Positions 6,722 through 64,000 of a stretch of 64,000 bases of DNA are shown piece by piece. The position numbers and the translations under genes were made by a program. Position 1 is the first letter of the stretch. Every line of letters begins with the position of its first letter. This DNA comes from Chrysophaeum taylorii (Eukaryota > Sar > Pelagophyceae > Pelagomonadales > Pelagomonadaceae). A model generated the notes under the pieces. The model saw only the letters and a list, made by a program, of their open reading frames with translations. It searched no databases and was not told where the DNA came from. The DNA lies in the NCBI GenBank assembly GCA_029834535.1, contig JAQMWT010000526.1, positions 343,459 through 407,458 of the forward strand, given 5' to 3'.

Positions 6722-6785
6722 ACCAACCTAACCGCTTCAGGGATCCTAAGCTTAAACCCTGATTCGTTGGAGAGACACACCAGCC

Positions 6786-7031
6786 CCACCCAGGCCACCC
6801 GATCCCAGCAGGACGTCACCCTTCGTCACACATACGTCCGGCGGCAGCACGCGTACGACCTACGGGCGGGGCCCGTCCTCTCTTCGCCTGCCCCACGCCT
6901 CGGCGATGACCCCGACTAGGTCCCGCGTACTTATCTCCGCCCGTCAGGCACATCCCTCATACCCCACAAACCCACCCACATCCTTCATGCTCCCCACACA
7001 CACCCCCCCCCTCTTAGCAGTCGACATTTAA
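6786..7031 (+). mobile_element. 5'-truncated non-LTR-like retroelement copy with target-site duplication
   Basis: This 246-bp segment is nearly identical to the 3' end of the retroelement at 59.0-59.28 kb: the last ~40 codons of the coding region ('RRQHAYDLRAGPVLSSPAPR'), the stop, and the 3' untranslated part ending in 'GTCGACATTTAA'. It is flanked by a perfect 13-bp direct repeat, AGACACACCAGCC, at 6773-6785 and 7032-7044. Missing 5' sequence plus a short direct duplication is the hallmark of target-primed reverse transcription, so this is a dead-on-arrival insertion rather than a shared gene end. No poly(A) tail is seen. Confidence 0.85.
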
Positions 7032-7086
7032 AGACACACCAGCCTGTGAACACAAGCCAGGCTTTGTGCGGCACAACACAAATCTG

Positions 7087-21186: not shown

Positions 21187-21348
21187 CGAGAGAAAGGCGA
21201 AGAACCGATCTGTAACGCCGCCACCAAAAGCATTTTTCCAGATACAAAAGAATTCCTTAATATCAAAACTAACCTCCCAGCGCTTAACTTATTATTATCA
21301 TTACTACGTAATTACTTACCCCAACAAAGATTCCGCCGTGCCGCGAGT

Positions 21349-21368
21349 CCTAACTACTAATCGACAGA

Positions 21369-21407
<39 letters not shown>

Positions 21408-23409
21408 TTGTCTGTTTGTCCCTCGATTTAGGGTAAGGATCAGGTAGGCGCGAGAGTAAGGATCAGGTAGGCGCGAGAGCCAGACAGTGAGCCTCCAAGC
21501 CGTCTACGGCGACCTCGCAGACTATTTCCACGACCCGCGGCGGCTCTTTCAGCGCGCCATTCTCTCGCCCCGTCGAAACGATGTTGTCGATGCTGACAAC
21601 GTGCGCATGACCTCGGCCTTTTTTCCCCGGAGACGAGGCGTCGGAGTTCTTTTCGGCCGACTAGGTTGGGTCGGAAGACGACGCCTCGCTCTTTACAGTA
21701 GAGTTTTGAACTCCCTGACGACCAACGGCATGCTGACTTTGATCGCGAGCTTAATGTCTTCGCAACCTCGACCCGTCGCACGGCCACTGCAACGGTACCA
21801 GATACGTGATCGATCGTGTCGTTGTCACCGAGGCTCCTCCAACCTGTATCCCTTAAGGCCCGCCGACGCCAAACGATCAACAAGAGCCAGGGCCAGACGC
21901 CCCGCGAGGTCGGCGTCCTTTTGCCCAAACCCGTCTTCTGCCACGTCCAGCTCTACGTGGCTCCCTGTCGATCGGCAACCCCGAGGATATAATCATCTGG
22001 GTCGACGACTCCACCCTACCCCACACGTGCTGCGCAATACCGATAAGCCCCCTCCCGGCGTCTACACGCGCACTATAGGTGAACTTACTGGGACCAGGTG
22101 AACTTACTGGAACCAGGTGAACTTACTGGGGTTGGAGATTGGAACTAGGTGAACTTAGTGACCAGGTGAACTTACTGAGACCAAGTGAGCTTACTGGGGT
22201 TTTTAGAGTAAACGCAAAGGATAGCGACGTGTGCGGATAAAAGCAGCTTAGATTGGCGGGGTGAGAGCGACGAGCTCAAAGGAGAGTGGGGTGAGTGGAT
22301 GTGAGCACGAGTGGGTTTACGCCGAACTTACTGGGGTTAGAGATTGGGACTAGGTGAACTTACTGGCCTGCACTTGTCCTAACTACTAATCGACAGATGT
22401 TTGTCTGTCTGTTTGTTTGTCCCTCGATTTAGGGTAAGGATCAGGTAGGCCCGAGAGTAAGGATCAGGTAGGCGCGAGAGCCAGACAGTGATCCTCCAAG
22501 CCGTCTACGGCGACCTCGCAGACTATTTCCACGACCCGCGGCGGCTCTTTCAGCGCGCCATTCTCACGCCCCGTCGAAACGATGTTGTCGATGCTGACAA
22601 CGCGCGCATGACCGCGGCCTTTTTTTCCCGGAGACGAGGCGTCGGAGTTCTTTTCGGCTGACTAGGCTGGGTCGGAAGACGACGCCTCGCTCTTTACAGT
22701 AGAGTTTTCAACTCCCTGACAACCAACGGGATGCTGACTTTGAGCGCGAGCTTAAGGTCTTCGAAACCTCGACCCGTCGCACGGCCACTGCAACGGTACC
22801 AGATACATGATCGATCGTGTCGTTGTCACCGAGGCTCCTCCACCGAGGCTCCTCCAACCTGTATCCCTTAAGGCCCGCCTACGCCAAACGATCAACAAGA
22901 GCCAGGGCCAGACGCCCCGCGAGGTCGGCGTCCTCTTGGCGAAGCCCGTCTTCTGCCACGTCTAGCTCTACGTGGCTCTCTGTCTATCGGCGACCCCGAG
23001 GATATCCTCTTCTTGGTCGACGACTCCACCCTACTCCACACGTGCTGCGCAATACCGATAAGCCCCCTCCCAGCGTCTACACGCGCACTATAGGTTAACT
23101 TACTGGGACCAGGTGAACTTACTGGGGTTTGAGATTGGGACTAGGTGAACTGAGTGACCAGGTGAAACTGGGACCAGGTGAACATACTGGGGTTTTTAGA
23201 GTAAAGTTTTTAGAGTAAACTCAAAGGTTGGCGGCGCGTGCGGATCAAAGCAGCTTAGATTGGCGGAGGCGAGAGCGACGAGCTCAAAGGAGTTGGTGTG
23301 AGCTAGGTGAACTTACTGACCAGGTGGACTTATACGAAACTTACTGGGACCACGTGAACTTACTGGGGTTAGAGATTGGGAGTAGGTGAACTTACTGGCC
23401 TGCACTTGT
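21349..23409 (+). repeat. Two tandem ~1 kb satellite units derived from a Helitron helicase
   Basis: Unit 1 is 21349-22377 and unit 2 is 22378-23409, head to tail. Each unit begins with 'CCTAACTACTAATCGACAG', a (TGTC/TGTT)n microsatellite, two copies of a 23-bp direct repeat containing 'AAGGATCAGGTAGGCGCGAG', then ~550 bp of decayed PIF1/Helitron helicase. It ends with a block of degenerate 'AGGTGAACTTACTGG' repeats and 'TGGCCTGCACTTGT'. The same unit forms the larger array at 59.5-64.0 kb in the same orientation. The array lies between the EF-hand and CLASP genes. Confidence 0.9.
22491..23060 (+). pseudogene. Helitron/PIF1-type helicase C-terminal relic inside satellite unit 2
   Basis: Read in shifting frames, the unit spells consecutive blocks of a Helitron RepHel helicase: 'GDLADYFHDPRRLFQRAILT' with 'RRNDVVDADNARM' (normally ERAILxPxNxxVxxxN), 'PGDEASEFFSAD' followed by a TAG, 'EDDASLFTVEF', 'LRNLDPSHGHCNGTRY' in the best copies, 'TINKSQGQTPREVGVL', and 'LYVALCR' matching motif VI (QLYVALSR). 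At least three frame changes and a conserved TAG separate the blocks. An equivalent relic occurs in unit 1 (21490-22045) and in the units at 60166-60720, 61146-61700, 62328-62880 and 63390-63945. The Rep nuclease part is absent. Confidence 0.8.
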
Positions 23410-58506: not shown

Positions 58507-59284
58507 GTCGCGAAAGCAAAGTGGCGACCGACAAAAGCTTACGACGTCAAGTCGTCCCAGACATCGCTCGACAACAAGGAGCAACTCTACGACATCAAAA
58601 CCCTCGCTTGGGGTTCGTCGTACACCGCCCACGCCCTCCATCCCTCCCACCCGTCGCCTGTCGATCGGCGCGCAGCGCAAGTCCACTCCGAATACCTCGC
58701 TCACGCCCGCGGCATCGACGCCATCATCCCCCAGCCGGGTACAGCACCACCGCCTGGCTTCTTGGGCCCTGTCGAACAGCGGCTACGTAGCTACGGCACC
58801 GTCGCCGGCCTCGTCTTCGGTGCCTTCGGTGAGGCCAGCGCGGCGTGCCACGCTCTCGCCCAAACATGCGCAGAGCGCATCGCTGCGCGAACCTGGGTGA
58901 CAAGCGGCTGCGCCAACTTCACAGAGGCAAAGGCGGCCCAAACTCGCCGCATCTACCGTGAGTGGGGGATCGCCAACGCATTAGGCCGGGCTCGCTGTGC
59001 CCTCACCGCCCTCACCCATGTCGCCGCCTCGGGGAACCCCGCCCAGGCCGCCCGATCCCAGCAGGACGTCACCCTTCGTCGCACATACGTCCGGCGGCAG
59101 CATGCGTACGACCTACGGGCGGGGCCCGTCCTCTCTTCGCCTGCCCCACGCCTCGGCGATGACCCCGACTAGGTCCCGCGTACTTATCTCCGCCCGTTAG
59201 GCACATCCCTCATACCCCACAAACCCACCCACATCCTTCATGCTCCCCACACACACCCCCCCCTCTTAGCAGTCGACATTTAAA
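58507..59284 (+). mobile_element. Retroelement 3' end: C-terminal coding region plus 3' tail
   Basis: An open frame of 221 codons from just after a TAA (58504-58506) to TAG 59170-59172, without a start codon, so its 5' part is gone. The protein has 'KAYDVKSSQTSLDNKEQLYD' and 'IKTLAWGSSY', 'RRAAQVHSEYLAHARGID', 'LGPVEQRLRSYGTVAGLVFG' then 'AFGEASAACHALAQ', 'RRIYREWGIANALGRARCAL'. I recall this arrangement (YDVKT, G-P-V-E-x-x-L, F-G-E-x-S) as the C-terminal region of algal reverse-transcriptase polyproteins. The 3' part (to 'GTCGACATTTAAA') equals the inserted copy at 6786-7031, whose target duplication proves it is mobile. It is intact through to the stop but fused to nothing upstream. Confidence 0.7.
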
Positions 59285-59520
59285 GACAGACACAGACAAA
59301 CAAACAAACAAACATCTGTCGATTAGTAGTTAGGACTGCTAAGAGGGGGGTGTGTGTGGGGAGCATGAAGGATGTGGGTGGGTTTGTGGGGTATGAGGGA
59401 TGTGCCTGACGGGCGGAGATAAGTACGCGGGACCTAGTCGGGGTCATCGCCGAGGCGTGGGGCAGGCGAAGAGACGACGGGCCCCGCCCGTAGGTCGTAC
59501 GCATGCTGCCGCCGGACGTA
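59086..59520. repeat. Large inverted repeat of the retroelement 3' tail
   Basis: Arm 1 (59086-59272) and arm 2 (59336-59520) are nearly perfect reverse complements of ~185 bases, both being the retroelement end from 'TACGTCCGGCGGCAGCATG' to 'CTCTTAGCAG'. The 63-base spacer (59273-59335) holds the TTTAAA tail and an inverted copy of the satellite's starting microsatellite with 'GTCGATTAGTAGTTAGG'. The unit could form a long hairpin. Further inverted tail pieces occur inside the satellite array at 62103-62178 and, degraded, at about 63262-63340. Confidence 0.85.
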
Positions 59521-59528
59521 TTTGTCTT

Positions 59529-62500
59529 CCTAACTACTAATCGACAGATGTTTGTCTGTCTGTCTGTTTGTCTGTTTGTCCCTCGATTTAGGGTAAGGAT
59601 CAGGTAGGCGCGAGAGTAAGGATCAGGTAGGCACGAGAGCCAGACAGTGATCCTCCAAGCCGTCTACGGCGACCTCGCAGACTATTTCCACGACCCGCGG
59701 CGGCTCTTTCAGCGCGCCATTCTCACGCCCCGGCCAGGTGAACTTACTGGGGTTGGAGATTGGGACTAGGTGAACTGAGTGACCAGGTGAAACTGGGACC
59801 AGGTGAACATACTGGGGTTTTTAGAGTAAAGGGTTTTTAGAGTAAACTCAAAGGTTGGCGGCGCGTGCGGATCAAAGCAGCTTGGATTGGCGGAGGCGAG
59901 AGCGACGAGCTCAAAAGGAGTTGGTGTGAGCTAGGTGAACTTACTGACCAGGTGAACTTATATGAAACTTACTGAGATTAGGTGAACTTACTGGGGTTAG
60001 AGATTGGGACTAGGTGAACTTACTGGCCTGCACTTGTCTTCCTAACTACTAATCGACAGATGTTTGTCTGTCTGTCTGTTTGTCTGTTTGTTTGTCCCTC
60101 GATTTAGGGTAAGGATCAGGTAGGCGCGAGAGTAAGGATCAGGTAGGCGCGAGAGCCAGACAGTGATCCTCCAAGCCGTCTACGGCGACCTCGCAGACTA
60201 TTTCCACGACCCGCGGCGGCTCTTTCAGCGCGCCATTCTCACGCCCCGTCGAAACGATGTTGTCGATGCTGACAACGCGCGCATGACCGCGGCCTTTTTT
60301 TCCCGGAGACGAGGCGTCGGAGTTCTTTTCGGCTGACTAGGCTGGGTCGGAAGACGACGCCTCGCTCTTTACAGTAGAGTTTTGAACTCCCTGACAACCA
60401 ACGGCATGCTGACTTTGATCGCGAGCTTAAAGTCTTCGCAACCTCGACCCGTCGCACGGCCACTGCAACGGTACCAGATACATGATCGATCGTGTCGTTG
60501 TCACCGAGGCTCCTCCAACCTGTATCCCGTAAGGCCCGCCGACGCCAAACGATCAACAAGAGCCAGGGCCAGACGCCCCGCGAGGTCGGCGTCCTCTTGC
60601 CCAAGCCCGTCTTCTGCCACGTCCAGCTCTACGTGGCTCTCTGTCGATCGGCAACCCCGAGGATATCCTCTTCTGAGTCGACGACTCCACCCTACCCCAC
60701 ACGTGCTGCGCAATACCGATAAGCCCCCCCCGGCGTCTACACGCGCACTGTAGGTGAACTTACTGGGACCAGGTGAACTTACTGGGGTTTGAGATTGGGA
60801 CTAGGTGAACTGAGTGACCAGGTGAACTTACTGGGACCAGGTGAACTTACTGGGGTTTTAGAGTAAACTCAAAGGTTAGCGCCGTGTGCGGATCAAAGAA
60901 GCTTAGATTGGCGGGGGTGAGAGCGACGAGCTCGAGGGAGTGGTGTGAGCACGAGTGGGTTTACGCCGAACTTACTGGGGTTAGAGATTGGGACTAGGTG
61001 AACTTACTGGCCTGCACTTGTCCTAACTACTAATCGACAGATGTTTGTCTGTCTGTCTGTTTGTCTGTTTGTTTGTCCCTCGATTTAGGGTAAGGATCAG
61101 GTAGGCGCGAGAGTAAGGATCAGGTAGGCGCGAGAGCCAGACAGTGATCCTCCAAGCCGTCTACGGCGACCTCGCAGACTATTTCCACGACCCGCGGCGG
61201 CTCTTTCAGCGCGCCATTCTCACGCCCCGTCGAAACGATGTTGTCGATGCTGACAACGCGCGCATGACCGCGGCCTTTTTTTCCCGGAGACGAGGCGTCG
61301 GAGTTCTTTTCGGCTGACTAGGCTGGGTCGGAAGACGACGCCTCGCTCTTTACAGTAGAGTTTTGAACTCCCTGACAACCAACGGCATGCTGACTTTGAT
61401 CGCGAGCTTAAAGTCTTCGCAACCTCGACCCGTCGCACGGCCACTGCAACGGTACCAGATACATGATCGATCGTGTCGTTGTCACCGAGGCTCCTCCAAC
61501 CTGCATCCCTTAAGGCCCGCCGACGCCAAACGATCACCAAGAGCCAGGGCCAGACGCCCCGCGAGGTCGGCGTCCTCTTGGCGAAGCCCGTCTTCTGCCA
61601 CGTCCAGCTCTACGTGGCTCTCTGTCGATCGGCAACCCCGAGGATATCCTCTTCTGGGTCGACGACTCCACCCTACCCCACACGTGCTGCGCAATACCGA
61701 TAAGCCCCCTCCCGGCGTCTACACGCGCACTGTAGGTGAACTTACTGGGACCAGGTGAACTTACTGGAACCGGGTGAACTAACTGGGGTTAGAGATTGGG
61801 ATTAGGTGAACTTAGTGACCAGGTGAACTTACTGAGACCAAGTGCAAGTTACTGGGGCTTTTAGAATAAACTCAAAGCTTAGCGGCGTGTGCGGATCAAA
61901 GCAGCTTAGATTGGCGGGGGTGAGAGCGAACGAGCTCAAAGGAGAGTGGGGTGAGTGGGTGTGGGTTTAAGCCGAACTATAGAGATTGTGTTTACGCCGA
62001 ATTTACTGGGGTTAGAGATTGGGACTAGGTGAACTTAATGGGGTGAAAATGCTGGGGTTAGAGATTGGGACTAGGTGAACTTACTGGCCTGCACTTGTTT
62101 GTCTTTAACTTTAAATGTCGACTGCTAAGAGGGGGGTGTGTGTGGGGAGCATGAAGGATGTGGGTGGGTTTGTGACGTATTTGTCCTAACTACTAATCGA
62201 CAGATGTTTGTCTGTCTGTCTGTCTGTTTGTTTGTCCCGCGATTTAGGGTAAGGATCAGATAGGCGCGAGAGTAAGGATCAGGTAGGCGCGAGAGTAAGG
62301 ATCAGGTAGGCGCGAGAGCCAGACAGTGATCCTCCAAGCCGTCTACGGCGACCTCGCAGACTGTTTCCACGACCCGCGGCGGCTCTTTCAGCGCGCCATT
62401 CTCACGCCCCGTCGAAACGATGTTGTCGACGCTGACAACGCGCGCATGACCGCGGCCTTTTTTTCCCGGAGACGAGGCGTCGGAGTTCTTTTCGGCCGAC

Positions 62501-64000
62501 TAGGTTGGGTCGGAAGACGACGCCTCGCTCTTTACAGTAGAGTTTTGAACTCCCTGACAACCAACGGCATGCTGACTTTGATCGCGAGCTTAAAGTCTTC
62601 GCAACCTCGACCCGTCGCACGGCCACTGCAACGGTACCAGATACATGATCGATCGTGTCGTTGTCACCGAGGCTCCTCCAACCTGTATCCCTTAAGGCCC
62701 GCCGACGCCAAACGATCACCAAGAGCCAGGGCCAGACGCCCCGCGAGGTCGGCGTCCTCTTGGCGAAGCCCTCTTCTGCCACGTCCAGCTCTACGTGGCT
62801 CTCTGTCGATCGGCAACCCCGAGGATATATCTTCTGGGTCGACGACTCCACCCTACCCACACGTGCTGCGCAATACCGATAAGCCCCTCCCTCCCGGCGT
62901 CTACACGCGCACTGTAGGTGAACTTACTGGGACCAGGTGAACTTACTGGGGTTGAGATTGGACTAGGAGTGAGCTAGTGACCAGGTGAACTTTCTGGGAC
63001 AGGACAGTGAGCTTACTGGGGTTTTTAGAGTAAACTCAAGGGTAGCGGCGCGGCGGATCAAAGCAGCTTGGATTGGCGGGGCGGTTGGAGAGCGACGCGA
63101 GCTCAAAGGAGTTTGTGTGAGCACGAGTGGTTTTACACCGAACTTACTGGGGTAGAGATTTGGACTAGGTGAAACTACTGACCAGGTGAGCTACTGGGAC
63201 CAGGTGAACTTGCTGGGGTTAGAGATGGGACTAGGTGAACTACTGGCCTCATTGTTTGGTCTTCAAAATGTCGATGCTACGAGGGGGGTTGTGTGTGGGG
63301 AGCGGGGAATAATGTGGTGGTTTGTTGGGGTATGAGGGTTGTCCCGCGATTAGGGTAAGGATCAGGTAGGCCCGCGAGCCAGACATTGATCCTCCAAGCC
63401 GTCTACGGCGACCTCGCAGACTGTTTCCACGACCCGCGGCGGCTCTTTCAGCGCGCCATTCTCACGCCCCGTCGAAACGATGTTGTCGATGCTGACAACG
63501 CGCGCATGACCGCGGCCTTTTTCCGGAGACGACGAGGGTCGGAGTTCTTTTCGGCCGACTAGGTTGGGTCGGAAGCGACGCCTCGCTCTCAAGAGTCGAG
63601 TTTTTAACTCCCCGACAACCAACGGCATGCTGACTTTGATCGCGAGCTTAAAGTCTTCGCAACCTCGACCCGTCGCACGGCCACTGCAACGGTACCGGAT
63701 ACATGATCGATCGTGTCGTTGTCACCGAGGCTCCTCCAACCTGTATCCCTTAAGGCCCGCCGACGCCAAACGATTACCAAGAGCCAGGGCCAGACGCCCC
63801 GCGAGGTGGGCGTCCTCTTGGCGAAGCCGTCTTCTGCCACGTCCAGCTCTACGTGGCTCTCTGTCGATCGGCAACCCCGAGGATATTGCTCATCTGGGGT
63901 CGACGACTCCACCCTAACCCACACGTGCTGCGCAATACCGATAACCCCTCCCGGCGTCTACACGCGCGTAGGTGAACTTACTGGGACCACGTGAACTTAC
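59529..64000 (+). repeat. Helitron-helicase-derived tandem satellite array (at least five units, open at right edge)
   Basis: Units start at about 59529, 60041, 61022, 62185 and 63339. The first is short (about 510 bases) with the helicase part deleted from 'CACGCCCCG' to a 'GGTGAACTTACTGG' block. The next three are about 980, 1163 and 1150 bases. The last runs off the window. Each full unit carries the (TGTC/TGTT)n start, a 23-bp direct repeat (two copies, three in the 62185 unit), the decayed helicase, and tandem 'AGGTGAACTTACTGG' copies. Units share the same TAG and frame shifts in the helicase. Toward 63 kb the copies become more eroded with many small deletions. No intact gene is present. 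Confidence 0.92.

Follow-up and report, generated by a model that had tools for sequence, protein, structure and literature searches.

The window, a 64,000-nucleotide stretch of Chrysophaeum taylorii DNA, carries two arrays of a tandem unit of about 1 kb, both of which were detected by self-comparison of the window (Table 1). The larger one (array 2) fills positions 59528–64000 with about five copies, confirming the tandem unit that an earlier, sequence-only reading had followed to the end of the window, and a second array (array 1), consisting of two units, was found at 21348–23408. Array 2 is cut off by the end of the contig, which coincides with the final base of the window (contig position 407458), and its visible extent is therefore a minimum. 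Array 2 is also uneven, in that unit 1 lacks most of the helicase part and LINE-like fragments break the array at two places. The two features that had been described at the ends of the unit, a (TGTC/TGTT)n microsatellite head and a tail of AGGTGAACTTACTGG-like copies, are both present. Across the window and the fetched loci, 43 units could be measured from end to end; their median length is 1043 bases (range, 509–1306). The stretch from 301 to 58103 of the window looks gene-rich, as Pfam families were seen in seven of the nine long ORFs scanned (kinase, kinesin, Frag1, sugar transporters, glycosyl hydrolase 1, and MYND/TPR).

Table 1. Units of the two arrays and the adjoining LINE-like sequences in the window (a slash within a sequence marks an element boundary).
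Feature	Position	Strand	Remarks
Array 1, unit 1	21348..22376	+	Left flank ..GCCGCGAG/TCC
Array 1, unit 2	22377..23408	+	Spacer-free joint to unit 1; right flank CTTG/TAATTTTAATT
LINE-like 3' part	58600..59290	+	Final ORF plus 3' end, which continues into GACA/AACA repeats; adjoins array 2
Reversed unit 5' end	59285..59335	-	Joined to LINE-like sequence at ..CTTAGCAG/TCCTAAC
Array 2, unit 1	59528..60036	+	5' end TCCTAACTACTAATCG, TGTC microsatellite, helicase start; 3' end CTTG
Jump from helicase start to tail in array 2, unit 1	about 59732/59734	+	
Array 2, unit 2	60040..61020	+	Complete, about 1 kb; 3-base spacer TCT separates it from unit 1
Decayed C-terminal part of RepHel helicase in unit 2	60163..60737	+	81–85% DNA identity to family A helicase; TAG and frameshifts
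Array 2, unit 3	61021..62097	+	Complete; spacer-free joint to unit 2, ..GCACTTG/TCCTAACTACT..
5'-truncated LINE-like 3' end between units 3 and 4	62098..62183 (approximate)	-	Sequence identical to 59320–59400
Array 2, unit 4	62184..63250	+	3' end degenerate (self-comparison, unit comparison)
Second LINE-like 3' end fragment	63260..63340 (approximate)	-	
Array 2, unit 5	63341..64000	+	Without 5' end; truncated by contig end

A further copy of the 3' end of the LINE-like element that adjoins array 2 lies at 6784–7039. We infer the LINE identity of this element; a Pfam scan of its ORF and of short unit pieces gave no informative match, the one hit among them being weak and unrelated (E = 0.071). 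Its 3' end (..CTTAGCAGTCGACATTTAAA) occurs 23 times (window positions 59265 and 7013; loci L019, L025, L030, L032, L033, and L041; and the examined stretch of contig C268), and about nine of these occurrences, judged by eye, continue into three or more GACA/AACA-type units. GACA/AACA is the complement of the TGTC head of the tandem unit, and the LINE-like element may favor GACA/AACA-type targets.

The core of the unit had been read as a decayed helicase of a Helitron RepHel protein, and this identification held. In a tblastn comparison of two RepHel proteins from the same genome with the window (E up to 1e-3), only the units matched, from 59635, 60151, 61132, 62314, and 63389 in array 2 and from 21493 and 22476 in array 1, with the matches split across shifted frames and the best E value per unit ranging from 6e-25 to 4e-9. 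The DNA identity given in Table 1 is that of the helicase segment of the unit to the helicase of a Helitron family referred to here as family A, as compared at L034, L035, and L036, of which L034 and L035 are 99.7% duplicates, and L035 was excluded from the unit comparisons. A Pfam scan of two short stop-free pieces of the unit (47 and 46 aa) returned no helicase match, which, taken literally, is the outcome that the sequence-only reading had named as speaking against itself; given the shortness of the pieces, this null result is outweighed by the DNA match to the RepHel gene and the tblastn matches.

An identical TAG is present in all 51 of the unit helicase segments compared. In addition, eight indels relative to one family A copy (1, 1, 19, 1, 4, 1, 4, and 1 bases) are each found in 48 to 51 of the 51 segments, where one of the eight may be a change in the reference copy, which has its own stop nearby, and two apparent deletions at the alignment edges are cut edges and were excluded from the count. 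Because these lesions are common to the copies, the unit copies descend from one already broken sequence, and the unit was broken before it multiplied, in line with the earlier claim that amplification followed the death of the helicase. The opposite case, also named beforehand, was a family of functional helicase genes in tandem; the helicase motifs are indeed recognizable, but the common TAG and the frame-breaking indels rule this out for the 51 copies, and we give it virtually no chance. The unit codes for nothing recognizable, no host role was seen for it, and its comparison with a plasmid collection gave no match.

The genome assembly (70.8 Mb in 697 contigs) contains 40 Helitron_like_N and 45 PIF1 matches, and two abundant Helitron families, A (e.g., on C268, C6, and C3) and B, are distinguishable. 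On C268, family A has a 1092-aa open frame with Helitron_like_N (200.6 bits), PIF1 (213.6 bits), and Pif1_2B domains, and the protein matches the Helraiser structure (7lcc) with an E value of 9.4e-185. The family B protein is approximately 49–54% identical to that of family A. A weaker group of Helitron_like_N matches (37–64 bits), seen on C58, C496, C564, C605, and C472, is perhaps a third Helitron family.

The sequence-only reading had proposed a search for an intact Helitron with the same 3' end as the unit. The 3' end of family A, ..AACTTACTGGCCTGCACTTG/T, is as in the unit; the copy examined on C268 has a stop upstream of the last helicase motifs. The unit starts with TCCTAACTACTAATCGACAGATG, followed by the TGTC/TGTT microsatellite. 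Family A contains the ..GTTTGTCCCTCGATTTAtGGTAAGGATCA.. of this head, and GTTTGTCCCTCGATTTATGGTAAGGATCA, located upstream of the family A gene, is one base different from the head sequence of the unit; in one examined copy, the family A head is interrupted by LINE-like and reversed-unit pieces, so that the sharing of the 5' end is seen in part. The microsatellite head, which had been called private to the unit, is thus the 5' end of the element, and it is not private, as it is partly common to family A.

The 5' terminus begins with TC: across the window and the fetched loci, 56 5' ends read TC(C/T)TAACTACTAATCG, whereas two unit copies located behind family B ends (L018 and L019) lack the TCC. 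Family B starts with TCCACAATAATTAATTGGG and ends with CTAG/T. Helitrons characteristically terminate in CTRR at the 3' end, with a hairpin shortly upstream, and insert between A and T, leaving the target unduplicated. The unit and family A end instead with CTTG, and three unit ends and two family A ends fold no better than shuffled sequences (z = 0.49 to 1.22), while the family B end (CTAG) forms two stems but does not clearly outdo its shuffled versions, 24 of 200 of which fold equally well (z = -1.15). In the fetched loci, each of the 28 3' ends that are not part of a spacer-free joint is followed by T, and the base preceding the 25 5' ends outside exact joints is G in 11, T in 9, and A in 5, several of these being altered joints. 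At a nested site (L030), the LINE-like host sequence resumes after the 3' end, with five extra bases on the left side. At L036, two same-strand 3' ends about 1.2 kb apart (5995 and 7194) have an identical 16-base flank, TCTTTTTATAAATACT, as if it had been copied along with the element. Since the unit retains from a family A-type Helitron the 3' end and at least some of the 5' end, it is best read as a non-autonomous Helitron of family A, which appears to share its ends with an element predicted to encode a Rep (HUH) domain and a PIF1-like helicase.

Exact ends are abundant in the genome: 2508 3' ends of the unit or family A and 1762 5' ends were counted. At about 1 kb each, 2508 copies would make up about 3.5% of the assembly, which is an upper estimate, as fragments and family A copies account for some of the 3' ends. 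In 418 places, a 3' end is joined to a 5' end with 0–6 bases between them. Of the 100 such joints that were listed, 85 are spacer-free and the other 15 contain 2–5 extra bases, with A as the last spacer base in seven of the 15 and T in six. A further 44 matches have 7–37 bases between the ends; 11 of the 44 begin with a spacer-free joint already included in the 418, and in six (and in a seventh with one base changed) a second copy lies at the same A^T within the 5' end of the first copy. Family B to family B joints number 116 and are spacer-free throughout among the matches listed. On C30, C118, C273, and C490, family B joints are unevenly spaced (about 1 to 6.5 kb), and the neighboring copies seem to be unequal in length. 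Twelve joints span the two families: in six of the eight B-to-unit joints TCC directly follows CTAG, and in the other two TCC is absent, whereas three of the four unit-to-B joints are spacer-free and one has six bases; overall, TC immediately follows the 3' end in nine of the 12. Reversed-pattern controls yielded zero matches for all seven of the end and joint patterns.

These joints bear on the earlier suggestion that the arrays were seeded by Helitron concatemers, that is, that one excised circle was copied for several rounds and inserted as a complete string of head-to-tail units. The head-to-tail joints at Helitron ends stood, and the spacer-free state of the 85 listed unit joints and of all listed family B joints is consistent with concatemers, as is the preponderance of joints within one family. 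Conversely, the 2–5 extra bases in the remaining listed unit joints argue against them, and joints of mixed family cannot arise from copying the circle of one element.

Concatemers of a single circle would also give clonal arrays. Among 30 segments, the difference was 2.1% within the 12 adjacent pairs and 3.2% between loci (P = 0.001). In the set of 51 segments, it was 2.0% for 28 adjacent pairs and 2.5% both for the 61 non-adjacent pairs within the same array and for array units from different loci; units with less than about 520–540 bases of the helicase segment or with less than 90% identity were left out. The 28 pairs, drawn from nine stretches of which several were chosen for their many joints, comprise 18 spacer-free pairs, two with a spacer, and eight with an altered or interrupted joint. 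At the 22 sites with shared variants (minor allele in at least four of 39 array units), neighbors differed at 31% of the sites, compared to 38% in shuffled pairs (P = 0.006). Across three cut-offs, the values were 20, 31, and 37% for the neighbors and 24, 38, and 45% for the shuffled pairs (P = 0.001–0.006), whereas copies from one circle would give about 0. The spacer-free pairs alone gave 31.5%, compared to 37.8% after shuffling (P = 0.038), and were no more alike than the others (2.1%, compared to 2.0% overall).

Local duplication does occur: in the array at L040 (C1:5801–13800), a short unit variant of about 0.77 kb is repeated several times, with two neighboring pairs differing by 0.55%, and this locally multiplied variant accounts for part of the likeness between neighbors. 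Overall, neighbors have some history in common but are mostly different, and the arrays examined are mostly non-clonal. Since the likeness between neighbors exceeds that between units of separate loci by a small margin, concatemers of one circle are not the most economical explanation, and together with the mixed-family joints this makes a single-circle origin doubtful; we consider it unlikely, though the above-chance likeness of neighbors is a point in its favor.

The shared-variant sites also revealed heavy mosaicism, with all four variant combinations present at 160 of 171 site pairs, and recombination or conversion among units could therefore have erased an originally clonal array. Widespread mosaicism and the local multiplication on C1 would likewise fit growth as a satellite, in which chance side-by-side insertions were expanded by unequal crossing-over and gene conversion without the transposase. 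Such growth, however, requires that the first exact joints pre-exist on many contigs, the counted joints fall at element ends, and the copies and short arrays are spread across many contigs; we regard it as improbable.

The arrays are dispersed in the genome. Copies are present on 10 of the 11 lowest-numbered contigs among the matches listed, and arrays lie well inside contigs C11, C15, C20, C57, and C99, as at 264–268 kb of the 380 kb of C57 and at 27–33 kb of the 226 kb of C11. The C1 array is at most 15 kb from a contig end, and array 2 of the window is at a contig end. Four-fold TTAGGG and three-fold TTTAGGG had no exact match anywhere in the assembly, and placement was therefore judged from contig positions. 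These lend no support to the proposed centromere or chromosome-end satellite, because the arrays are dispersed and several are well inside contigs, and nothing in the contig positions indicates restriction to such places.

We consider it rather likely that the unit, about 1.04 kb long, is a non-autonomous Helitron derived from family A, and that its arrays formed mainly by end-to-end landing, followed by local duplication. The unit would have arisen in the same genome by internal deletion of an autonomous RepHel Helitron of family A, a deletion that would have retained the 5' head, a piece of dead helicase, and the 3' end. The family A RepHel protein would mobilize the unit in trans. An incoming copy would then land at the end of one already in place, so that different copies stack head to tail; the resident CTTG/T end could itself serve as a purine^T site, with the transposase working at ends. 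Local duplication would afterwards multiply some of the units. The mostly different neighbors and the mixed-family joints lead us to favor, with moderate confidence, end-to-end stacking of insertions, combined with local duplication, rather than concatemers of a single circle. Two findings run counter to the stacked-insertion account: joints within a family (418 and 116) far outnumber mixed joints (12), as concatemers would also give, and neighbors exceed chance likeness at every cut-off tried.

Tandem Helitrons are already known from bats and plants. Those of Myotis lucifugus (Pritham and Feschotte 2007, as cited in passages of PMC2267711, PMC5876387, and PMC7492417) have exact head-to-tail joints, and for adjacent Helitrons of maize, the pertinent part of PMC2267711 posed two models, rolling-circle repeat and consecutive insertion, and favored the latter for one of the cases. 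Sections of PMC5876387 and PMC5148889 invoke the bat and plant arrays in support of rolling circles. The present arrays resemble the bat and maize cases, as there described, in their exact 3'-to-5' joints, but differ in having hundreds of joints, two families, and mixed joints, and in that the unit and family A end with CTTG without a detectable 3' hairpin. The plant centromeric arrays (Xiong, Dooner and Du 2016, as cited in passages of PMC5148889 and PMC7492417) are likewise multiple tandem truncated Helitrons, whereas the copies here are dispersed; according to the corresponding passage of PMC7492417, inner copies are often cut at the 3' end, unlike the joints counted here, which have the whole 3' end.

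For Helraiser, experiments demonstrated circles in which the two ends are precisely joined, as described in a section of PMC5876387. The likeness to Helraiser lies in the RepHel protein match; Helraiser is an active reconstructed element, whereas the unit and family A are known from sequence alone. The Fusarium oxysporum Helitrons, in the account given in part of PMC5148889, share non-canonical ends, self-insertion, and duplicated 5' ends with the present elements, with few tandem cases, and their end sequences and target sites differ from those described here. The oyster HINE/Helentron elements, as presented in a portion of PMC7492417, are also non-autonomous rolling-circle elements bearing short tandem repeats, but their repeats lie within one element, whereas whole elements repeat here and the tail minisatellite is minor. 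A Phytophthora agathidicida paper was set aside as a parallel, as its head-to-tail remark, in the passage concerned, refers to genes and not to Helitrons. A literature phrase search for "helitron concatemer" matched no paper.

What is useful in the present case is the scale, the mixed joints, and the non-clonal arrays. The unit illustrates how dispersed satellite-like DNA can be seeded by a transposon, and with its unit, family B, and mixed joints, this 70.8-Mb genome offers a natural test set for the rolling-circle claim, in which the arrays are short enough to be assembled. It is conceivable, and we put this forward tentatively, that the transposase favors the ends of Helitrons already in place as sites for incoming copies. 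The element would thereby provide its own landing pad, and arrays of different copies would grow one copy at a time. If so, apparent rolling-circle concatemers would mostly be stacked independent insertions.
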